A stretch of DNA of 27,581 nucleotides from a virus. The stretch is taken from IMG/VR virus record IMGVR_UViG_3300028025_003600, positions 1 through 27,581 of that record. The stretch is one strand, 5' to 3'. Under the pieces are notes generated by a model that saw only the letters and a program-made list of their open reading frames with translations, did no database searches and had not been told where the DNA came from. Numbering within the stretch: the stretch's first letter is position 1; every line of letters begins with the position of its first letter. A program made the position numbers and the translations under genes. This document shows, in pieces, positions 3,381 through 27,529 of the stretch.

Positions 3381-3663
3381 TCAAATAAAAGAAATTCTTC
3401 TTGGTGAAGAAGCCAAATATGTCAGAGCATTCATAGAAGGTGGTGGATGTTCTGGATTTAATTATGGATTCACACTAGAAAATACTAAGAATGATGATGA
3501 TTTTGAAATCACAGAACAACTACTTGTTGATGCTATGAGCATGCAATATTTTGATAACGCAACTATTGATTATACAAGCGATAAACTAAAGGGTTCGCAG
3601 TTTGTTATATCAAACCCCAATGCGAAATCAACTTGCGGATGTGGGAGTTCATTCAGCGTATGA
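3352..3663 (+). CDS. iscA: A-type iron-sulfur carrier (IscA/ErpA family)
   Basis: A 103-residue HesB/IscA-family protein that accepts or delivers Fe-S clusters or iron. The three invariant cysteines are C33 ([11 protein letters not shown]) and C95/C97 ([11 protein letters not shown]); the CGCGSSF ending is classic for IscA, ErpA and SufA. Which of the three subtypes it represents cannot be decided by eye. The ATG at 3352 lies 29 bases inside iscU, so expression should be coupled. A-type carriers are, from memory, known in aquatic phages; the pairing with a full IscU directly after nrdB is less usual. The stop overlaps the next start as ATGA at 3660. Confidence 0.93.
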
Positions 3664-9467: not shown

Positions 9468-9809
9468 ATGAAAAAATTATTATTGATTTCTCTGTTGGTT
9501 TTGTCTGGATGTTCGCTCATTCTACCAAGACCACACGACCCAGTGATGTTTGATAATCTAGTTTCAACTAAAATCGCAGTAAATAAGTTGTCATGTGATG
9601 ATAAAAACTGGACAGATGCTGAAAATAAAATACAACATCTTAAAGTATATACTGAATTACGAAACGACCCTCAAGCAAAATCTATCGCTCAATTAGAGGA
9701 AGCAATTGGTAAAGCCAAAGCATCTAACAGCAAAGTTTTTTGTGAGAGTATCCTTAAAATAAACAAAACTCGCATTGATGTAGTTGTTGATGCATGGAGG
9801 GGAAGATGA
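9468..9809 (+). CDS. Small lipoprotein
   Basis: A 113-residue lipoprotein: MKKLLLISLLVLSGCS has a classic lipobox (LSGC) with the lipidated cysteine at residue 15. The mature part is helical and charged, with two further cysteines (C43, C92) that may pair. No aspartate follows the lipid cysteine, so sorting to the outer membrane is expected in a Gram-negative host. An outer-membrane spanin subunit would have this size and location, but no partner inner-membrane spanin is obvious, so this is only one possibility. Confidence 0.82.
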   Translation: MKKLLLISLLVLSGCSLILPRPHDPVMFDNLVSTKIAVNKLSCDDKNWTDAENKIQHLKVYTELRNDPQAKSIAQLEEAIGKAKASNSKVFCESILKINKTRIDVVVDAWRGR

Positions 9810-10036
9810 TTGATCAATTAAGAGAAGTCGTAGGAATGGGTGGTCCAGGTGCAGCATTGGCAAACGAGTTGCTTGTTCTTCGCGAACAATATGAAAGACA
9901 AGAAATTACACTGGAAGAATATCAATATCTTACCAATCAAATTGCTGAAGTAAGAGCTGCTCAAGAATTAAGTAGCGACGAGCAAGCATGTCGTTATATT
10001 ATTGCTGCTGCTAAAGCTCTTTCAACATTTGTGTAA
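9806..10036 (+). CDS. Small helical protein, unknown
   Basis: A 76-residue protein. The start is taken at the ATGA junction (9806) because GGAGG at 9796-9800 lies five bases before it; the ATG at 9794 has no ribosome site. A Gly/Ala-rich N-terminal segment (EVVGMGGPGAALANELL) is followed by a helical hairpin, LREQYERQEITLEEYQYLTN, that resembles SHOCT-like short motifs. It abuts the phosphoesterase gene by one shared base. Function unknown. Confidence 0.75.
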   Translation: MIDQLREVVGMGGPGAALANELLVLREQYERQEITLEEYQYLTNQIAEVRAAQELSSDEQACRYIIAAAKALSTFV

Positions 10037-19941: not shown

Positions 19942-20173
19942 TGTAGTTGAGTATGTTGAGATTGATTTTTGTGATGGATATCAGGTTCGTCTTGAACACG
20001 AGCATGAGAAGAAATACGACACTCATACTATAACATTCAAGCGAAAGAATATTGATCCCGAATGTAAAGACAAACAGTTGTATTCAGACATTCAGTTTAA
20101 TTTAGACACAGAGCATTTCAAACAATTTTGTAAATTTTTTAATACAATCGGAGAACGATATGATAACGAGTGA
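19922..20173 (+). CDS. Small protein, unknown
   Basis: An 83-residue charged protein with alternating beta-strand-like segments (YVEIDFCDGYQVRLEHEHE, THTITFKRKN) and a C-terminal helix (TEHFKQFCKFFNTIGERY). It overlaps the next gene by 14 bases. Function unknown. Confidence 0.7.
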   Translation: MTTLQRNVVEYVEIDFCDGYQVRLEHEHEKKYDTHTITFKRKNIDPECKDKQLYSDIQFNLDTEHFKQFCKFFNTIGERYDNE

Positions 20174-20492
20174 TAGTAACATTGATTTTATTTCTTTAGC
20201 AAGAGCATCTGGTATCGATCCAGATACTATTGTCAATACACCTGAGTTTGCAGAATGGATGCGTGAATATTTGTCAGAGTCCAAAGTTGCTGTAACTTTT
20301 ACGAAAAAAGATGGAAGCGAACGAAGAATGGTTTGCACTAAAAAGAGTGATCTAATCCCAACCGACAAACTTCCAAAGGGAACTGGCACACAACCAACTG
20401 GTGATGCAGTTGCTGCATTTGATTTAGAAAAGCAAGAGTGGAGATCTTTTAATACAAGTTCTATTAAACATATTGAATGGAATGTAGCATGA
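20160..20492 (+). CDS. WYL_2-type Sm-like SH3 phage protein
   Basis: A 110-residue protein. After a short N-terminal helical part, residues 42-108 read as the small SH3-like barrel found in many T4-like phages: VAVTFTKKDGSERRMVCT, then a linker with KLPKGTGTQPT, then AVAAFDLEKQEWRSFNTSSI and KHIEW. This matches the family labelled WYL_2/DUF2693, which may bind nucleic acid or regulate; no role is proven. Its stop overlaps dsbA at ATGA. Confidence 0.82.
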   Translation: MITSDSNIDFISLARASGIDPDTIVNTPEFAEWMREYLSESKVAVTFTKKDGSERRMVCTKKSDLIPTDKLPKGTGTQPTGDAVAAFDLEKQEWRSFNTSSIKHIEWNVA

Positions 20493-20752
20493 GTCAGATA
20501 TCAAGCCCAGCCGATCGCGACAAAATTAAAAAAATGTTGGCGGAAATTAGTGGATCTATGACACGCATGGAAGCAGAGCGTGACTTGGTTCGTGAAACTA
20601 TCAAAGACATGTCTAAACAATTCAATTTACCTGTAAAAACATTGAATCGTATGGCAAAAGTTTATCATAAACAAAACTACAACCAAGAAGTTGCTGAACA
20701 TGAAGAGTTCGAAGAGTTATATGAAACAATCGTACAAGAAAAGAATAATTAA
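20489..20752 (+). CDS. dsbA: DsbA-like dsDNA-binding protein (T4 late transcription)
   Basis: An 87-residue protein starting at the ATGA junction. The C-terminal half (LPVKTLNRMAKVYHKQN, HEEFEELYETIVQ) aligns with my recollection of T4 DsbA, a small double-stranded DNA-binding protein that helps late promoter use in vitro, including the LYHK and ELYDTV blocks. This phage protein is unrelated to the bacterial disulfide enzyme also called DsbA. In T4 the gene lies next to rnh; here rnh is about 2 kb downstream. Confidence 0.78.
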   Translation: MSQISSPADRDKIKKMLAEISGSMTRMEAERDLVRETIKDMSKQFNLPVKTLNRMAKVYHKQNYNQEVAEHEEFEELYETIVQEKNN

Positions 20753-20754
20753 AA

Positions 20755-20943
20755 ATGGGTAAAATATTATTGGCTCTCTTGGTTATTGTTGCATTTTTGG
20801 TGTTAATACCAATTGCTACAATCTGGTCTCTTAATACATTATTCCCTGTTTTGGCAATTCCATTAACATTGGATACTTGGATGGCTGCAGTGGTTTTGGG
20901 TGGTGTAGTCGGTGGAACAACTGCAGTAACTTTTAAAAAATAA
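20755..20943 (+). CDS. Small two-span membrane protein
   Basis: A 62-residue hydrophobic protein with two membrane helices, about 3-27 (ILLALLVIVAFLVLIPIATIW) and 38-57 (AIPLTLDTWMAAVVLGGVVGG). It ends VTFKK. Small proteins of this type are frequent in aquatic T4-like phages; role unknown. It shares its stop base with the next start (TAATG). Confidence 0.75.
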   Translation: MGKILLALLVIVAFLVLIPIATIWSLNTLFPVLAIPLTLDTWMAAVVLGGVVGGTTAVTFKK

Positions 20944-21599
20944 TGAAATCAGTGAAAGACTCAATAATTGTTCTAGACGATCTTGTTCCTAAACATGTTC
21001 AGGATTCATTAGAACAATTGTGTATGTCTGGACATTTTCCATGGTATTTTAATCAATCTTCCAACTATACTTCTAAGTCTAATAGAAATAACAGTATAGA
21101 AGATTATACTAAGATGTCAGAAATATCTTCTGGCATTGATGTTCCACAATTCATACACAGTGTATATCACCACCAGCATCAAAAAGACTCGCAGTTTCTT
21201 GTTGCATTTAATTCTCTACTGTGTTGTATCCCTGCTAGCATTGATACACTATTAAGAATTAAATTGAATCTTAATTATTCTCAAACATTTGATACAACGG
21301 AAACATATAGTATCCCGCATGTTGATTTTGTTTCTGTCGATAACTTGACAACTTTAATATATTATGTAAATGATAGCGATGGTGATACCATAATCTTTAA
21401 CGAAAAGAGATCCACTGGAGATTTACCGAACTGTGATAAATTGACAATCAAACAAAGAATCACACCCAAGAAAGGTAGATTTGTCATGTTTGATGGTTCT
21501 TATTTACATGCAGGCAATTTCCCCTCTGGTGAATCACCAAGAATTGTTGTAAATATCAATATCATTCCCCACAAAGTCTTTACAGTCGTTGAAAAATAA
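20943..21599 (+). CDS. 2OG-Fe(II) oxygenase-like protein
   Basis: A 218-residue protein of the 2-oxoglutarate/Fe(II) dioxygenase superfamily. The iron triad is visible: H-x-D in IPHVDFVS (about 137-139) and the distal histidine in GSYLHAGNFP, followed by the 2OG-binding arginine in SPRIVVNINI. Strands such as LTTLIYYVNDSDG and GRFVMFDG frame the barrel. Phage members can hydroxylate proteins, nucleobases or small molecules; the substrate is not evident. It is the last gene before the 21626 promoter. Confidence 0.87.
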   Translation: MKSVKDSIIVLDDLVPKHVQDSLEQLCMSGHFPWYFNQSSNYTSKSNRNNSIEDYTKMSEISSGIDVPQFIHSVYHHQHQKDSQFLVAFNSLLCCIPASIDTLLRIKLNLNYSQTFDTTETYSIPHVDFVSVDNLTTLIYYVNDSDGDTIIFNEKRSTGDLPNCDKLTIKQRITPKKGRFVMFDGSYLHAGNFPSGESPRIVVNINIIPHKVFTVVEK

Positions 21600-21602
21600 T
21601 GC

Positions 21603-21631
21603 TTGACATTTATTCGTAAATAGGGTATAAT
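21603..21631 (+). promoter_or_regulatory. Consensus sigma70 early promoter
   Basis: TTGACA and TATAAT with 17-base spacing (TTTATTCGTAAATAGGG): both hexamers are perfect. GAGGAG at 21645-21650 serves the next gene. Confidence 0.95.
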
Positions 21632-21657
21632 TAATACTTAAATGAGGAGATTACCCT

Positions 21658-22773
21658 ATGGCTACATCAGCTAAAAATAAGTTGCAAGCAGCAAAACACG
21701 AACGCATGGTGAAAGGCGATGAACCAACACTTCGTTCAGAAAATTATCAAGTCGATCTTTTACATGCATTGAATTATTTTAATGCTCATCACGATGACAA
21801 AGATAAGAAGAAGTGGTTCATTCACTTCGTTGGTAAAACTGACAAGAAACTGGCAGTTCAATTAAACAAACTTGATGAGAAACTTTTCCGTCAAGCAGGT
21901 GTTCTTGCCAGATTACAAGAAACTGGTTCAGAATTAATGGAGAAGGAAGCTGTATATTTTGCAAATAAATTTGCTGAGTTGAAAGAAACCCTACCCAAAC
22001 CTGAACCAACAAAGAAAGAAGTTGATGCATCTGCTGCCAAAGAAGCAGCAAATGTTGTCTCAATTCAAGAACGCATGCTCGAAAAAGCACGAGAAATGGC
22101 TGGAGAATTTGAGGGATTGATTGATGAGTTCGTGGTTAATGATAAGTCTTTTGATGCAGCAACTGTTTTGAAACATTATCAAATCAGTGGACCAGTTGCC
22201 AAACTTATGGTAAACATGTTTGACAAAACCATTGCAGAACTTGAAGAAGTTCTTGAAGGTGATGATGAGCAACTTAACGAAGGTTACTCTCATCTCAAGA
22301 AAACAAAGATCAAGAAACTGTTGGCACTTTATCAATCCATTGGTGAAGCATGTGGTTTGCAGGTTCAGGTTGCCAAGGCAACTCGTGCTCCTCGCAAGCG
22401 TAAAGAGAAACCAGCAGGTGTGTTGGTTGCCAAGATGAAATTCAAGAAAGAAGATACTGACTATGGTATCAAGTCTGTCTTGGCTTCTGGTATTATCAAC
22501 AGTCAGGAACTATGGGTGTTCAATACCAAGTACAAGAAACTACAAGTTTATCGTGCTATGGATGACAAGGGTTTGTCCGTCAAGGGAACTACTATCATCG
22601 GTTACGATCCAAGTAACTCAGGTGGTCGCACTTTGCGTAAACCAGAGTTGGTTTCTAGTTACCAAGGTATGGGCAAGCGTCCGCTAAATGCAGCATATAA
22701 AGCATTGACAACTAAAGAAGCATCGGTCAATGGTCGAGTTAATGAGGAATGTATCCTCTTGAAAGTATTTTAA
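21658..22773 (+). CDS. Conserved T4-like phage protein, unknown
   Basis: A 371-residue lysine-rich cytoplasmic protein headed by the strongest promoter and a GAGGAG ribosome site, so probably abundant early. The N-terminal part has a helical, charged domain (EKEAVYFANKFAELKE); residues around 240-252 are very basic (ATRAPRKRKEKPA); the C-terminal domain from about 255 looks beta-rich (KSVLASGII, ELWVFNTKYKKLQVY, KGTTIIGYDPSNSGGRTLRKPE, the last quoted only in part as GGRTLRKPE). I recall the C-terminal domain from many aquatic T4-like phages with no function. Its place next to rnh hints at replication, as inference. Confidence 0.86.
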   Translation: MATSAKNKLQAAKHERMVKGDEPTLRSENYQVDLLHALNYFNAHHDDKDKKKWFIHFVGKTDKKLAVQLNKLDEKLFRQAGVLARLQETGSELMEKEAVYFANKFAELKETLPKPEPTKKEVDASAAKEAANVVSIQERMLEKAREMAGEFEGLIDEFVVNDKSFDAATVLKHYQISGPVAKLMVNMFDKTIAELEEVLEGDDEQLNEGYSHLKKTKIKKLLALYQSIGEACGLQVQVAKATRAPRKRKEKPAGVLVAKMKFKKEDTDYGIKSVLASGIINSQELWVFNTKYKKLQVYRAMDDKGLSVKGTTIIGYDPSNSGGRTLRKPELVSSYQGMGKRPLNAAYKALTTKEASVNGRVNEECILLKVF

Positions 22774-22774
22774 T

Positions 22775-23647
22775 ATGATTTTAATTGACTACTCGCAGGT
22801 ATCACTGGCTAATATTCTTTCCTTCAAGAAAGAGTTAATGTCAGGTGATGCCAAAGCAACAACCGATTTGATTCGCCATGCGACTCTATCAACAATAAAA
22901 TCCTACAAGAAAAAGTATGGTAAAGACTATGGGGACATAGTTATTTGTTGTGATGGTCGCAACTATTGGCGTCGTCAATATTTTGAGTACTACAAGTCTG
23001 GTCGTAAGAAAGCCAGAGAAGCATCTGACTTAGATTGGCATATGATTTTTGACACGCTGGGTGTCATTCGTGATGAGATGAAGGAACACTTTCCTTACAA
23101 AATTCTACACATCGACCAGTGCGAAGCAGATGATATCATTGCAGTATTGGCTAAACAGACACAAGAGTTCGGGTTCAATGAGAATGTAATGATTGTTTCC
23201 AGCGACAAGGATTTTAAACAGTTACACAAGTATACTAATGTGAAACAATACAGTCCACTGTTGCGCAAAATGATTACAGCCAAGCAGAGTGATCTTCATA
23301 CAAATTTAGTTGAGCATATTGTTAAGGGCGACTCTGGTGATGGTATTCCAAATATCTTGAGTAAAGATAATTGTTTTGCAGTTGGTGATAGACAAACACC
23401 AGTATCTGCGAAAAGACTTGCTGAATTCTTTGAGAAAGGATATGATGCTTGTCGCAATGATGAAGAAAAACGCAACTGGAAACGAAACGAAATTCTAGTG
23501 CAGTTTGAGAGCATTCCTGATGCTATTCAAAAAACAATTCTTGATGAATACCTAAGTAGTAAACCAAAGGGCGATAAAATGAGCATCATGAATTATTTGA
23601 TTGCGAATAGATGTCGATTATTACTAGATGAAATTGAGGAGTTTTAA
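22775..23647 (+). CDS. rnh: T4 Rnh-like RNase H / 5'-3' exonuclease
   Basis: A 290-residue FEN-family nuclease that removes RNA primers from lagging-strand fragments. Acidic residues and signatures: D5 (LIDYSQ), D60 with CDGRNYWRRQYF, the CEADDIIAVL block with D119/D120, VSSDKDFKQL with D144/D146, and GDSGDGIPN in the helix-hairpin-helix region. Length is close to T4 Rnh (305). It follows the preceding gene by one base and shares a base with the next (TAATG). Confidence 0.95.
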   Translation: MILIDYSQVSLANILSFKKELMSGDAKATTDLIRHATLSTIKSYKKKYGKDYGDIVICCDGRNYWRRQYFEYYKSGRKKAREASDLDWHMIFDTLGVIRDEMKEHFPYKILHIDQCEADDIIAVLAKQTQEFGFNENVMIVSSDKDFKQLHKYTNVKQYSPLLRKMITAKQSDLHTNLVEHIVKGDSGDGIPNILSKDNCFAVGDRQTPVSAKRLAEFFEKGYDACRNDEEKRNWKRNEILVQFESIPDAIQKTILDEYLSSKPKGDKMSIMNYLIANRCRLLLDEIEEF

Positions 23648-24090
23648 TGAGTAGAATTATTACAGAAATCTTGAAAGAGATTAATACTGATTACAAGAAT
23701 GCAGAAAAGTATATTAAACAAAAACCTGCATTATCAATTATTTTTCAACATGCATATATGAAGGAAAAGAAGTTTCTTCTTCCTGAGGGAGAACCTCCAT
23801 ACAAAAAATCTTCTGAGCCACTGGGTATGACACCAGTAAATCTATTGACTGAACTCCGTAGATTTTATGTGTTTTGCCGAGCCGACCTGAAGCAACTTCA
23901 ACGAGAGCAGATGTTTGTTGGTCTTTTAGAAGGTCTTCACGCTGATGAAGTAGCTCTAATGATGGCAATCAAGGATCAAACCCTTCACAAACTCTATCCA
24001 AAACTCACCAGAAAGTGGGCTGAGAGCGTGAACTTAATTCCTAAAACCGAGCCTACAACCCCCAAAAAGACCCCTGTAAAGTCCGTGTAG
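23647..24090 (+). CDS. DUF6433-like phage protein next to rnh
   Basis: A 147-residue helical protein. ILKEINTD, KKFLLPEGEPPYKK, GMTPVNLLTELRRFYVF and AIKDQTLHKLYPKLT form the pattern I associate with DUF6433, which commonly follows rnh in aquatic T4-like phages. A Thr/Pro/Lys tail follows. In T4 this position holds small transcription/replication factors, but I see no clear match to them. It is followed by a hairpin and a new promoter. Confidence 0.82.
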   Translation: MSRIITEILKEINTDYKNAEKYIKQKPALSIIFQHAYMKEKKFLLPEGEPPYKKSSEPLGMTPVNLLTELRRFYVFCRADLKQLQREQMFVGLLEGLHADEVALMMAIKDQTLHKLYPKLTRKWAESVNLIPKTEPTTPKKTPVKSV

Positions 24091-24118
24091 ATTCTCCAAG
24101 GACGACTTTTAGACCTAA

Positions 24119-24145
24119 AATAACCCTACCATGCGTAGGGTTATT
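24119..24145 (+). terminator. Perfect 11-bp hairpin, probable terminator
   Basis: AATAACCCTAC (24119-24129), loop CATGC, GTAGGGTTATT (24135-24145). The stem is perfect but the downstream T run is short (TTATTC), so it could act in either direction. It separates the rnh operon from the next promoter. Confidence 0.78.
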
Positions 24146-24156
24146 CGCACTGGTGC

Positions 24157-24185
24157 TTGACATTAATTCGTAATTCAGGTATAAT
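24157..24185 (+). promoter_or_regulatory. Consensus sigma70 early promoter
   Basis: TTGACA and TATAAT with a 17-base spacer (TTAATTCGTAATTCAGG); both hexamers are perfect. It drives the operon 24219-26551. Confidence 0.94.
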
Positions 24186-24218
24186 TATCTTATGATGATT
24201 AAAAAAGGAAATATGAAT

Positions 24219-24497
24219 ATGTTGAAAAACGAGAAATTGGCTACTGTTGGCGATATTATTCGTGCTTATGACTTTAAGCCAATGTATGGTCGTAGTGACT
24301 GTTTTGTTGAAGGTAGAGTTATTTCTATAAACGAAGATCGTGGTTACAAAGCATACAAAATTGAATGTATCAATGACTTCTTTGATGGTAAATTCCGCAA
24401 GGGTGTTCGCAGTTCTCGTGTTGCCAAAGAGGTTTATGTTCCAATGGAAGTTTCTTTCATGGAATATGATGGTCGTATTTTAAACTTGTCGAAGTGA
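24219..24497 (+). CDS. Small phage protein, unknown
   Basis: A 92-residue protein. ATG 24219 is chosen because AAGGA at 24205-24209 is nine bases away and the promoter start site would be near 24192; ATG 24213 is in frame and possible. Segments VGDIIRAYDFKPMYGRSDC and VEGRVISINEDRGYKAYKI suggest a small beta-barrel domain that I have seen in related phages; function unknown. Confidence 0.75.
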   Translation: MLKNEKLATVGDIIRAYDFKPMYGRSDCFVEGRVISINEDRGYKAYKIECINDFFDGKFRKGVRSSRVAKEVYVPMEVSFMEYDGRILNLSK

Positions 24498-24504
24498 GGA
24501 TAAT

Positions 24505-24669
24505 ATGGCACAAATGAAACAACTTTGGGAAAATATCAACTGGGCTCTTGACACCTACATAGGTGCAGAATACAAATCTTGTGAAGAGATTGCTGATGAA
24601 TTAAAATGTCCAGTAGAATGGGTAAATGAAATAGTTGAACAAAGATGGAAAGAAACAATTGGTGAATAA
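24505..24669 (+). CDS. Small helical protein, possible helix-turn-helix
   Basis: A 54-residue ORF with GAGGA at 24496-24500. The middle CEEIADELKCPVEWVNEIVEQ (residues 26-46) resembles a helix-turn-helix (helix, short turn at KCP, second helix), so it may bind DNA. It fills the gap between two genes and overlaps the MazG-like start by eight bases. Confidence 0.65.
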   Translation: MAQMKQLWENINWALDTYIGAEYKSCEEIADELKCPVEWVNEIVEQRWKETIGE

Positions 24670-24964
24670 ATTTATAAAAATGAAACAAATTAATGAAGCA
24701 AATCAAGAAATTTTGTTAATCGCACAGGAAGAATGTGCCGAGGTTACTCAGGCGATTAGTAAAGTGTTTCGGTTCGGTATGGATTATGAGTACAATGGTC
24801 AAACAAATCGCGAACACCTAGAAGAAGAAATTGGCGACCTTATGTGTATGATTGATTTAATGATTGACAATGGCATGGTTAGTGAATCGGCAGTAATGAC
24901 TGCGAAGAACGAAAAACTGAACAAGTTGCTGACATGGTCGACAATCTTTAAGGAAACTGTATGA
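24662..24964 (+). CDS. MazG-like nucleotide pyrophosphohydrolase
   Basis: About 100 residues from GTG 24662; ATG 24680 is an alternative start, and neither has a strong ribosome site. The all-alpha NTP pyrophosphatase motif is clear: EECAEVTQA (E-E-x2-E) and EEEIGDLMCMID (E-x2-D), which bind Mg2+ for hydrolysis of a nucleoside triphosphate to the monophosphate. Phage members may clean dNTP pools or lower host ppGpp signalling; substrate unknown. Next to the dCMP deaminase gene cluster, which fits nucleotide metabolism. Confidence 0.87.
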   Translation: MNKFIKMKQINEANQEILLIAQEECAEVTQAISKVFRFGMDYEYNGQTNREHLEEEIGDLMCMIDLMIDNGMVSESAVMTAKNEKLNKLLTWSTIFKETV

Positions 24965-25182
24965 TTACAATTAATGGTCTTACTAAACGACAAGTAAAAA
25001 TGCTTGACAAAATGTGGGCGATTGATAGTTATGAGGAGTATATGGAGTGGAAATCTACTCTATGTTACGCTCAAAAACAGCAATGTGAGACACTTGAAGA
25101 ACTTGTAACACTTGCTGAAAATGATGTTGTTGATGATGTGACAGAAGCGAAATCTTTAATTGAGAAAGTGATGAAATTATGA
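24961..25182 (+). CDS. Small acidic protein, unknown
   Basis: A 73-residue protein starting at an ATGA junction. It is helical and acidic: LTKRQVKMLDKMWAIDSYEEY, then ETLEELVTLAENDVVDDV. I recall similar small proteins near MazG-like genes in T4-like phages; no function. It ends at another ATGA junction. Confidence 0.73.
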   Translation: MITINGLTKRQVKMLDKMWAIDSYEEYMEWKSTLCYAQKQQCETLEELVTLAENDVVDDVTEAKSLIEKVMKL

Positions 25183-25331
25183 ACGAATATTTTGCGTATT
25201 TGAATGTTTTGCGTGAGAGTGGTGTTACTAACATGTTTGGAGCAGCACCATATCTTCAAAGAGAATTTGATTTGTCCAAACATGAAGCACGAGATATTTT
25301 AAAACAATGGATGGAGAGTTTCCGTGGATGA
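25179..25331 (+). CDS. Small conserved phage protein, unknown
   Basis: A 50-residue ORF at an ATGA junction. ESGVTNMFGAAPYLQREF and LSKHEARDILKQWMESF form a helical pair that I recognise from many T4-like phages; function unknown. It overlaps the next GTG start by eight bases. The conserved look and packing support it despite its size. Confidence 0.75.
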   Translation: MNEYFAYLNVLRESGVTNMFGAAPYLQREFDLSKHEARDILKQWMESFRG

Positions 25332-25551
25332 TACACAATTAGAAGATTTGTCCCATCAAATAGACAATATTTTGATTAGACTTGCCCAAAACAATGACTC
25401 TACGGCACTACTTCTTTCTAGTGTATTTCTAGCCAGATTGATGTTGCTTTGTGACGCAGTTGGTGCTGGTTCAGATTTTAGAAAATTGTGTCAGGAAGTT
25501 TCAACAAATCCGTTGATTCGCAATGACATACCACAGGAAGTAGTTCATTGA
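25324..25551 (+). CDS. Small protein, unknown
   Basis: A 75-residue protein starting with GTG inside the previous gene. A helical acidic N-terminus is followed by a hydrophobic helix (ALLLSSVFLARLMLLCDAV), too broken by charge to be a clear membrane span, and NPLIRNDIPQEVVH. The stop and next start overlap as TGATG. Confidence 0.68.
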   Translation: MDDTQLEDLSHQIDNILIRLAQNNDSTALLLSSVFLARLMLLCDAVGAGSDFRKLCQEVSTNPLIRNDIPQEVVH

Positions 25552-25979
25552 TGAAACAAAAGTGGGTTGCTGCTTTTATGGACACAGCTGAGAGATTTGC
25601 TCAGTTGAGTTCAGCAAAAAGATTGCAGGTAGGTGCAGTTGTAGTCAAGGATAATAGGATTATTTCTATTGGTTACAATGGTATGCCTGCTGGTTGGACA
25701 AACGAATGTGAAGAAGTTATACAGTTGTCAGATGACACTGTTGAATTGAAAACGAAAGATGAGGTAATTCATGCTGAAGCAAATGCTATACTCAAGTTGG
25801 CTCGTGATGGCGAATCAGGCAATGGTTCCAGTTTATTCTGTACTCATTCTCCTTGCATTCACTGTGCTAAATTGATTCACGGAGTAGGTATATATAAAGT
25901 GTACTATCGTCAGTCCTATCGCGACAATGACGGAATTGATTTTTTACAAAAATGTAATATAGAGGTGGAGCAAGTATGA
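25551..25979 (+). CDS. dCMP deaminase
   Basis: A 142-residue zinc deaminase converting dCMP to dUMP for dTMP synthesis. The zinc site is H74-A-E76 (VIHAEANAI) and C102-x2-C105 (SPCIHCAKL); the N-terminal RLQVGAVVVKDNRIISIGYNG (quoted as region 24-44) matches ComEB/T4 cd-type enzymes. ATG 25551 overlaps the previous stop; an in-frame TTG at 25548 is less likely. It is shorter than T4 Cd (about 190), nearer to bacterial ComEB-like forms. It agrees with the ribonucleotide reductase and MazG-like genes as a nucleotide pathway. Confidence 0.93.
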   Translation: MKQKWVAAFMDTAERFAQLSSAKRLQVGAVVVKDNRIISIGYNGMPAGWTNECEEVIQLSDDTVELKTKDEVIHAEANAILKLARDGESGNGSSLFCTHSPCIHCAKLIHGVGIYKVYYRQSYRDNDGIDFLQKCNIEVEQV

Positions 25980-26551
25980 ATGAGCGATTAGATCTTACTG
26001 AAATGTTTACTTCGTTTTATGTTACAACACAATTATCATTGGATAATGAGAAGCTGAAGAAATTATGTATGGAACTTGTTCCAGATGTAAACAAAAACAG
26101 TGGTATGTTGGACATAAATCATGAAGGATTCGCAGAACTAAGATCTAAGGTTGTTGAGAAAACAAACATCATTCATAATAAACTTGGATTGTCTTCGTCG
26201 CATAAGCAAGAAATATGGAGATATTGGGTAAATTTGGATAGAGCATGGGCAGCAATGGAACCACACTGTCATCCTGATGGATTTTTCTCTGCTGTTTACT
26301 ATCCATCGGCAGAGAATGATAGTAAATTGAAGTTTATGAATCCTGTCAGAGAAATTCCCATTGTTGTTAAGAGAGAATTTGTTTCTCAGGGTAACAAGTA
26401 TTGGTCTCATGGGTGGGGTGTAACACCAACTGCTGGGATGTTGGTAATCTTTCCATCTTGGATATATCACTACATTGAGAATGAGAATTATAAAAACACA
26501 GGCGATAGAATTTCTATTGCTTTTGATACAAGAATTGTTGAAAACATTTGA
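25976..26551 (+). CDS. 2OG-Fe(II) oxygenase-like protein (second)
   Basis: A 191-residue protein of the phage 2OG-Fe(II) oxygenase type. HCHPDGFFSAVYYP (about 97-110) provides the H-x-D/H-x-P-x region, GMLVIFPSWIYHYIE the distal histidine, and DRISIAFDTRI the 2OG-binding arginine and last strand. WRYWVNLDRAWAAMEPHCHP is the usual approach segment of the TIGR02466-like group, quoted as a region. Substrate unknown. It is a different subfamily from the protein at 20943. Start at ATGA junction 25976. Confidence 0.87.
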   Translation: MNERLDLTEMFTSFYVTTQLSLDNEKLKKLCMELVPDVNKNSGMLDINHEGFAELRSKVVEKTNIIHNKLGLSSSHKQEIWRYWVNLDRAWAAMEPHCHPDGFFSAVYYPSAENDSKLKFMNPVREIPIVVKREFVSQGNKYWSHGWGVTPTAGMLVIFPSWIYHYIENENYKNTGDRISIAFDTRIVENI

Positions 26552-26576
26552 CATTTATTCATGTTTAGTGTATAAT
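26548..26576 (+). promoter_or_regulatory. Consensus sigma70 promoter before the tRNA cluster
   Basis: TTGACA and TATAAT with 17-base spacer (TTTATTCATGTTTAGTG); perfect hexamers. The -35 overlaps the stop of the oxygenase gene. It would transcribe the 32-codon ORF and, by read-through, the tRNAs. Confidence 0.94.
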
Positions 26577-26612: not shown

Positions 26613-26711
26613 ATGATATTAAGACCTACCAACTATAGAAATGATTTACCATCATGCAATGGTTGGACAGGATCACACTCAGAGTATCTTGCTGGGGGTT
26701 TTGTGAAGTAA
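26613..26711 (+). CDS. 32-codon ORF between promoter and terminator
   Basis: ATG 26613 has AAAGGA at 26591-26596 too far upstream and GAAAGAACC nearer by, so its ribosome site is weak. The product (MILRPTNYRNDLPSCNGWTG and SHSEYLAGGFVK) has no recognised family. It is the only ORF in a unit bounded by a consensus promoter and a strong terminator. The transcript could instead be a non-coding RNA or simply a leader. Confidence 0.4.
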   Translation: MILRPTNYRNDLPSCNGWTGSHSEYLAGGFVK

Positions 26712-26733
26712 AAACTTTTTGAGTTTATTTCCC

Positions 26734-26767
26734 AAAACCCTCTACCTGAAAAGTTAGAGGGTTTTTT
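26734..26767 (+). terminator. Rho-independent terminator upstream of tRNAs
   Basis: AAAACCCTCTA (26734-26744), loop CCTGAAAAGT, TAGAGGGTTTT (from 26755), then further T. An 11-pair stem with a six-T run: a strong terminator only ten bases before tRNA-Glu. Confidence 0.92.
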
Positions 26768-26776
26768 GTTTTATAT

Positions 26777-26851
26777 GCTCGGCTCGTCTATCGGTTAGGA
26801 CACTGCCCTTTCACGGCAGGAAGACCAGTTCGATTCTGGTGCCGAGTGCCA
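26777..26851 (+). tRNA. tRNA-Glu (anticodon TTC)
   Basis: Acceptor GCTCGGC pairs with GCCGAGT (one G-T at the end), anticodon stem CTGCC/GGCAG with loop CTTTCAC (anticodon at 26810-26812), T arm CCAG-TTCGATT-CTGG, discriminator G and encoded CCA. Its last six bases are the first part of a 22-base inverted repeat reaching 26867. Confidence 0.95.
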
Positions 26852-27003
26852 TTTGTTTAGTGCTATCAAGGTATCGTCATAGGACGCTATGACTATGCGG
26901 GTCCAACTGGCGAGGGACGGATCCTAATATAACTGCTTAGTCGCTATGGCACAGAATCGAACTGGACGCCTAAATCGAGCAGATAGCACTAAACAAATGG
27001 CAC
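26852..27003 (+). ncRNA. Structured non-coding segment A in tRNA cluster
   Basis: No gene-like ORF. A perfect 22-base inverted repeat (26846-26867 with 26982-27003) would close it. Inside are hairpin GTCATAG/CTATGAC (26876-26893), GGGTCC/GGATCC (near 26900 and 26917, with one G-U), and CTGC-TTAG (26931) pairing with CTAA and GCAG (ending 26981). This gives a multi-branched, roughly cloverleaf-shaped fold. The part at 26952-26965 is the exact reverse complement of the tRNA-Glu T arm. T4 encodes two stable RNAs (C and D) among its tRNAs; this could be an analogue, but no sequence match is claimed. Strand is taken from the tRNAs; because of the symmetry the minus strand also folds. Confidence 0.6.
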
Positions 27004-27022
27004 CCATGCAAGTGCGCAAGGT

Positions 27023-27055
27023 TTGGTAGTTTTCCTTTTATCCAAAAACTACCAA
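27023..27055 (+). terminator. 11-bp hairpin between segment A and tRNA-His
   Basis: TTGGTAGTTTT (27023-27033) and AAAACTACCAA (27045-27055) pair perfectly around an 11-base loop. A T5 run follows four bases later. It may terminate transcription or be a processing signal. Confidence 0.55.
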
Positions 27056-27067
27056 GATGTTTTTGGT

Positions 27068-27150: not shown

Positions 27151-27234
27151 GGAGAATGAGCAGCATTGGCGACTGCAGCAGACTGTAAATCTGTGTCCTC
27201 TGGAAACTTGGTTCGACTCCAAGATTCTCCACCA
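27151..27234 (+). tRNA. tRNA-Tyr (anticodon GTA)
   Basis: Acceptor GGAGAAT/ATTCTCC, anticodon stem GCAGA/TCTGT with loop CTGTAAA (anticodon 27185-27187), a long variable arm as expected for bacterial tRNA-Tyr, T loop GTTCGACTC, discriminator A and encoded CCA. Confidence 0.94.
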
Positions 27235-27239
27235 AATCT

Positions 27240-27450
27240 CGACAGCTACTAGCGTGATAGTAGTCGCATACTCAGCGTCACGAGTCGGGGGTGGTCAACC
27301 GTAAAGAAGAGTGCCCAGTAACATCCAGGAATGTTACATATAAGGGAGTCCGAACCACTGAATAGAACTGTAACTATTAAGAGATCAAAACACAGTGACA
27401 GAGTGTGCAACTCAAGTAAGGGCGATGTGGAAGTCGTAGCTTACACCAAA
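27240..27450 (+). ncRNA. Structured non-coding segment B in tRNA cluster
   Basis: About 210 bases without a gene-like ORF between tRNA-Tyr and tRNA-Asp. Perfect short helices: CTACTA/TAGTAG (27246-27263), GTAACAT/ATGTTAC (27318-27337) enclosed by GTGGT/ACCAC (27291-27295 with 27354-27358), AATAG/CTATT (27361-27378), CACA/TGTG (27391-27407) and GTAAG/CTTAC (27416-27444). It is richer in G+C than the flanking protein genes, as expected of a folded RNA. It may be a stable phage RNA comparable in position to T4 RNAs C/D, or part of a larger ornate RNA such as GOLLD; no consensus match could be tested. Confidence 0.58.
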
Positions 27451-27454
27451 TTTA

Positions 27455-27529
27455 GGCTCGTTAGTATAATGGTCATTACAGCGGATTGTCTATCCGCTTA
27501 TGGGAGTTCGATTCTCCCACGAGTCGCCA
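27455..27529 (+). tRNA. tRNA-Asp (anticodon GTC)
   Basis: Acceptor GGCTCGT/ACGAGTC with one G-T, anticodon stem GCGGA/TCCGC with loop TTGTCTA (anticodon 27488-27490), T arm GGGAG-TTCGATT-CTCCC, discriminator G and encoded CCA. Confidence 0.95.

Follow-up and report, generated by a model that had tools for sequence, protein, structure and literature searches.

The question raised by this locus is what occupies a gap between two tRNA genes at the right end of a viral contig. The window, i.e. the whole stretch of DNA that was analysed, is a linear IMG/VR record of 27,581 bases. Its left part encodes proteins of the DNA ligase, exonuclease, dCMP deaminase, NrdA and 2OG-oxygenase families, a gene content from which we infer a T4-superfamily myovirus. 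The right end enters a tRNA array containing tRNA-Glu, -His, -Tyr and -Asp and a truncated fifth tRNA. Upstream of the array, a sequence that matches the sigma-70-type promoter consensus at 12 of 12 positions, TTGACA-17-TATAAT, lies at 26548–26576 (+ strand). Between this promoter and tRNA-Glu (26613–26770), a 32-codon ORF precedes a terminator-like hairpin, AAAACCCTCT...AGAGGGTTTT, with a T run; the same layout precedes the array of a related contig, L005. ARAGORN places tRNA-Tyr(gta) at 27151–27234 and tRNA-Asp(gtc) at 27455–27529, both on the + strand, leaving a gap of 220 nt (27235–27454).

An earlier note on this DNA had suggested a structured non-coding segment of about 210 nt at 27240–27450. 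Its location was right, and the conserved RNA is slightly longer at both ends, occupying about 218 nt (27236–27453, + strand). It is further referred to as segB, and the labels segA and segC are used for other array RNAs. As had also been stated, the gap is richer in G+C than the coding background (45% vs 36.5% for the preceding coding region, 20000–26551) and carries no supported protein gene. The ORFs of at least 50 aa listed there are a 51-aa TTG ORF leaving tRNA-Tyr and a 53-aa TTG ORF on the minus strand, and no frame is open across the homologues.

Exact and degenerate pattern scans retrieved segB homologues from 17 further IMG/VR phage contigs of 4.5–358 kb, giving 18 loci with the window included. 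Clustering at 90% identity places the 15 distinct sequences in 11 groups; the most divergent pairs are 60% identical. Chance pattern matches in coding DNA (L006–L008, L020, L022, L025–L029, L031 and L032) were discarded on inspection, as was a 20-mer match in a Prevotella Lak phage with no tRNA nearby. The covariance model R1 matches 17 other records with E ≤ 1e-58 and finds a single full-length segB in each, in every case on the strand of the tRNAs; since R1 was built mostly from the same carrier sequences, this result describes copy number and is not an independent discovery. Against 50,697 records of cultured phages, BLAST searches with six homologues yielded only noise; one homologue had no match among plasmids, and pattern scanning of GTDB genome contigs, done twice, found no segB. 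The carriers are best read as uncultured tailed phages whose tRNA arrays are large. No description of segB was found among open-licence papers; an earlier description elsewhere is possible. It is close to certain that segB is a real, conserved and previously uncatalogued family of phage non-coding RNAs.

Folding energy provides little help in establishing its structure. The minimum free energy of the gap is −55.1 kcal/mol (z-score −1.48), and 19 of 200 shuffled sequences fold equally well; the L003 homologue has a z-score of −0.87. The short helices noticed earlier are present, but the single-sequence fold is unconvincing and no better than chance. Moreover, the long-range helix of the minimum-energy fold, joining the regions of 27266–27273 and 27400–27408, differs from the structure supported by covariation. 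That the z-score is only −1.48 would suit a chance G+C-rich spacer without function; this reading is refuted by covariation and by conservation across lineages, and we give it practically no weight.

For the covariation analysis, the 15 distinct sequences were aligned with plain MAFFT (alignment A1), and a structure of 54 pairs was derived by hand. It comprises 11 helices, nine plus two pseudoknots, with 96% of cells paired. Double (compensatory) changes occur in 32 of the 54 pairs, compared with a shuffle mean of 17.9 (s.d. 2.3); none of 500 shuffles reached 32, and sliding the partners leaves only 6–10 pairs with double changes. Given that kinship can inflate such counts, coordinated changes were also counted on a tree built from unpaired columns, yielding 65 for the segB structure versus 15–28 for slid pairings. 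The predicted structure is thus proved by comparison of homologues and not by folding energy. The covariation check proposed in the earlier note was therefore positive.

In the predicted fold, a 5' domain (P1, P2, and P3 with its loop pseudoknot) would be followed by a central domain (P4–P6), and the conserved core would comprise P7, the second pseudoknot, the UGACAGRG/CAACUCA motifs and the P9 hairpin. All coordinates below are on the + strand. P1, formed by 27238–27241 (CUCG) and 27286–27289 (CGGG), closes the 5' domain; it is paired in 98% of cells, with one pair varying on one side (C-G/U-G) and no double changes. The P2 hairpin (27245–27251 with 27258–27264) is paired in 100% of cells and has double changes in five of seven pairs, and the P3 hairpin (27265–27267 with 27275–27277), in two of three. 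Pseudoknot 1 joins the P3 loop at 27270–27273 (ACUC) to 27282–27285 (GAGU); all four pairs show double changes, pairing is 100%, and the variants found in different phages include ACUC/GAGU, AUUC/GAAU, GCCU/AGGU and GUUA/UAAC. The central domain is closed by P4 (27291–27294, GUGG, with 27355–27358, CCAC), in which one pair covaries (U-A/C-G) and the remaining ones are invariant. Within it, P5 (27314–27316, CCC, with 27344–27346, GGG) has double changes in two of three pairs and in L033 pairs in a shifted register. The P6 hairpin (27318–27324 with 27331–27337) is of variable length and is missing from several homologues; its double changes, in six of seven pairs, were counted among the six sequences that have it.

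The P7 hairpin (27361–27365 with 27374–27378) has double changes in four of five pairs. Pseudoknot 2 pairs its loop, 27367–27371 (ACUGU), with 27392–27396 (ACAGU). It is paired in 100% of cells and shows double changes in four of five pairs, each of these four with at least three changes on the tree; the variants are ACUGU/ACAGU, AUUGC/GCAAU, AUCAC/GUGAU, ACCAU/AUGGU and ACUGC/GCAGU. The two pseudoknots rank with the best supported helices of segB. The conserved core motif, UGACAGRG....CAACUCA (27396–27414), is near-invariant in all homologues, with many invariant unpaired nucleotides. It includes the short P8 (27401–27403 with 27411–27413), which is weakly supported, having no double change. 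The support for P1 and P8, which show almost no variation, and for P4, with a single variable pair, comes mainly from conservation. The P9 hairpin (27416–27444) consists of 27416–27420 with 27440–27444 and an inner part, 27422–27425 with 27434–27437; double changes are seen in four pairs despite two misaligned rows, and by eye P9 reads CUAUAG/CUAUAG in L019 and GGACGG/CCGUCC in L034.

Does this structure belong to a known family? A comparison with Rfam 15 (4227 models, GOLLD included), again a check proposed in the earlier note, produced no match at segB in the window and six homologous loci, either at gathering thresholds or at E ≤ 10; L033, L035, L036, L038 and L014 were compared at gathering level only. 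Taken together with the overwhelming covariation, this bears out the suggestion that a new phage RNA family might be present. segB is new to Rfam and constitutes a new family within the structured RNAs of phage tRNA arrays. Several identities were considered and rejected. The core resembles RNase P in GGAGUCC and GACAG, but no model matches and the architecture is wrong. Group I intron and tmRNA identities were dismissed as well, and so was a Ro/Y RNA identity: the Ro/TROVE protein (PF05731) was not found in 16 carrier records, many of which are fragments. Two sub-threshold YrlA-like matches of about 31 bits (E about 0.004–0.005) lie in segB-bearing arrays, at 3418–3521 (−) of L017 and 1137–1199 (−) of L023. 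ARAGORN also reports, as a starred entry, a tmRNA with the tag ANDELYALAA in the tRNA array of a 316-kb contig (L034 4528–4855, +).

The position of segB bears on its function. All 18 loci lie within tRNA arrays on the tRNA strand. In 17 of them P1 starts 2–4 nt past a CCA that ends an upstream tRNA or a tRNA-like minihelix (3 nt past that of tRNA-Tyr in the window), which is shorter than the usual distance between tRNAs: the ordinary tRNA–tRNA gaps of the same arrays (those of at most 30 nt) have a median of 6 nt and quartiles of 5–8. The remaining locus, L002, has a spacer of 14 nt, so strict abutment is not required. The upstream tRNAs vary (Tyr, Ser, Ala, Ile, Gly, Arg and Pro). In L033 and L038 no full tRNA is called there, and segB is directly preceded by an acceptor and T-arm-like minihelix with a CCA end (about 9614–9650, −, and about 614–650, +, respectively; −16.5 kcal/mol), an arrangement suggesting that what matters is a 3' end of tRNA type and not the identity of the tRNA. 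On the other side, the downstream tRNA usually begins 6–16 nt past P9 (10 nt in the window) and farther away in L034. No tRNA immediately follows segB in L017, L024 and L023, so that its 3' end must arise otherwise there.

Such tight placement next to unrelated upstream tRNAs in 17 of 18 loci, along with the many invariant unpaired nucleotides of the core, might indicate a ribozyme, cleaving itself or acting in trans, whose cut at the 5' edge of segB frees the CCA of the upstream tRNA. Such a mechanism has been proposed for the HDV-like theta ribozymes, which set a published precedent for RNAs located in the 3' trailers of phage tRNAs (PMC10879173). However, the distance to CCA is not constant (2, 3, 4 and once 14 nt), segB accompanies one tRNA per array although arrays reach about 30 tRNAs, its topology is not the nested double pseudoknot of HDV, and no Rfam ribozyme model matches. 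We regard cleavage of this kind as unlikely, and slightly less likely still that segB would represent a new large natural ribozyme acting on tRNA precursors, in cis or in trans, by a cut just past CCA.

A comparison with L005 bears on two other explanations. This relative, the only locus found via the neighbouring 2OG-oxygenase, has a neighbouring protein 97% identical to that of the window, and in its array tRNA-Tyr is directly followed by tRNA-Asp (CACCAAATTAGGCTCG) without segB. The presence of the same junction without segB makes segB an exchangeable cassette. As the Tyr–Asp junction is filled in the window and empty in L005, CACCAAAT flanks segB on both sides, and the upstream tRNAs differ between phages, segB could be a selfish or mobile cassette, of an orphan guide-RNA or intron-like type, that inserts at tRNA 3' ends without benefit to the phage. 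HEARO, the guide RNA of IscB (RF02033), is a structured RNA of about 200 nt from mobile elements. Its model (gathering threshold 83 bits) gave, in 17 carrier records, a best match of 7.1 bits (E 8.35) at one unrelated place, and a HEARO identity of segB was rejected as not exceeding noise. Rfam introns do not match either, no cognate nuclease was identified in a non-exhaustive search, segB is present in a single copy per genome, and its core is under strong purifying selection across lineages that are only 60% identical. The odds are clearly against a purely selfish element.

The same junction argues about action in cis. segB always lies on the tRNA strand and adjoins tRNAs, and the same arrays are filled with structured spacers from other families, as would be expected if segB acted only in cis, as a spacer, a terminator or a signal for processing of the tRNA operon, and had no function as a free RNA. 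On the other hand, sequence conservation and two pseudoknots far exceed the needs of a spacer, no terminator-like site occurs within segB on the + strand, and segB is missing from the same junction in L005, which means that this tRNA pair does not need it in cis. A role restricted to cis thus seems improbable.

The reading we favour, and consider probable, is that segB represents a new family of phage tRNA-array RNAs that is released by tRNA end processing and acts in trans. In this model segB would be transcribed within the tRNA-array precursor; co-transcription with the tRNAs is suggested by the perfect promoter upstream of the array. Release of a free RNA of about 210–220 nt would then follow from maturation of both flanking tRNAs, the upstream one being trimmed at its 3' end to CCA and the downstream one being cut by RNase P at its 5' end. 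Excision through tRNA end maturation on both sides is known from mitochondrial tRNA precursors as the punctuation principle. The enzymes that process tRNA ends are known to accept acceptor/T-arm minihelices as minimal substrates, and thus the minihelix of L033 and L038 fits the punctuation model. Once free, segB may serve as a stable scaffold or regulator in trans during infection. We infer action in trans, since a cis spacer needs no near-invariant core and the L005 junction exists without segB. Most plausibly it would act in translation or in the tRNA economy, a role already suggested for other RNAs of tRNA arrays; this is the natural guess from the company that segB keeps. A function of this kind is suggested by location and by analogy with GOLLD and ROOL, which are themselves unexplained.

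The tRNA arrays that carry segB apparently contain many structured RNAs not yet described. segA is a structured spacer 3' of tRNA-Glu, located at 26846–27003 in the window, 9878–10036 (−) in L002, 823–972 in L003 and 9473–9625 in L005. A long helix closes it and, in the window, runs into the 3' end of the tRNA; CAAGGUAUCGU...AUAACUG is conserved. The region 26852–27067 of the window folds with a z-score of −3.8, compensatory changes are seen among three to four phages (the window, L002, L003 and L005), and Rfam contains no match. In the window, 14 nt of segA (26952–26965) are a perfect reverse complement of the T-arm of tRNA-Glu (26825–26838); this complementarity is not apparent in the aligned copies from L002, L003 and L005. 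segC, an RNA of about 220 nt also without a match in Rfam, is found in L019 (41–~240, −), L023 (1970–2206, −), L038 (5620–5850, +) and L033 (record G012, 42329–42383). It shares with segB the 3' module, GACAGGGUAAC.ACUCA and a P9-like hairpin, which in segC reads GACAGGGUAACMACUCAG followed by the hairpin GGGC..GUAGC and is matched by R1 with E-values from 3.6e-5 to 7e-4. More spacers with long closing stems were observed in L015 (7349–7457, reverse-strand positions), L013 (4486–4750 and 5543–5722) and L014 (between Lys and Met and between Arg and Leu). One closing stem among these is AACAGAAACATACT...AGTATGTTTCTGTT, and the stem TGTTGAGAGT...ACTCTCAACA is common to L013 and L015.

The structured RNAs of phage tRNA arrays, namely GOLLD, ROOL and T4 rnaC/rnaD, are a long-standing puzzle. 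To these segB adds a family that is independent and smaller, whose secondary structure is defined and whose two pseudoknots are strongly supported. It is found in contigs from 4.5 to 358 kb alongside at least two further uncatalogued families, segA and segC. Its size suits routine structure determination and in vitro tests, and the non-tRNA content of phage tRNA arrays becomes a directly testable question. Should segB prove catalytic or ribosome-directed, it would represent a new class of phage RNA.

Comparison with these known systems places segB beside them and within none. The theta ribozymes are HDV-like RNAs located directly 3' of phage tRNAs (PMC10879173), and segB shares the position immediately 3' of a tRNA. 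However, they have a small HDV-like fold and occur mostly with CCA-less tRNAs of gut phages, whereas CCA is encoded in the tRNAs that precede segB, and the covariation-supported topology of segB differs from the HDV-like nested double pseudoknot. The T4 stable RNAs named in the earlier note, rnaC and rnaD (species 1 and 2), are, like segB, small RNAs encoded among the clustered tRNA genes of a phage of the T4 superfamily. They are 119–139 nt long compared with about 218 nt, and R1 run with filters off on T4 69000–74000 gave no match to either of them (best E 1, elsewhere in the region); the likeness therefore holds as an analogy and not as membership. The same applies to GOLLD (RF02032), a structured RNA of phages and prophages found near or in tRNA arrays, with function unknown (PMC12286853). 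At 400–800 nt and more, it is unrelated to segB in sequence and structure, its model (at least 150 bits) has no match at segB, and in the arrays of L019 and L021 it is present separately from segB. The L019 copy, on a 358-kb contig (2226–2690, −; 33668–34132, −, of record G008), scores 198 bits and, in the same array as segB, overlaps a tRNA-like call at 2555–2626. ROOL, a pseudoknotted phage RNA often found near tRNA islands (PMC12286853), is likewise much larger than segB. What segB has in common with GOLLD is that both are structured RNAs of phage tRNA arrays, and with ROOL, that both are pseudoknotted phage RNAs next to tRNAs; the location typical of the two, in or beside a phage tRNA array, is shared by all 18 segB loci.
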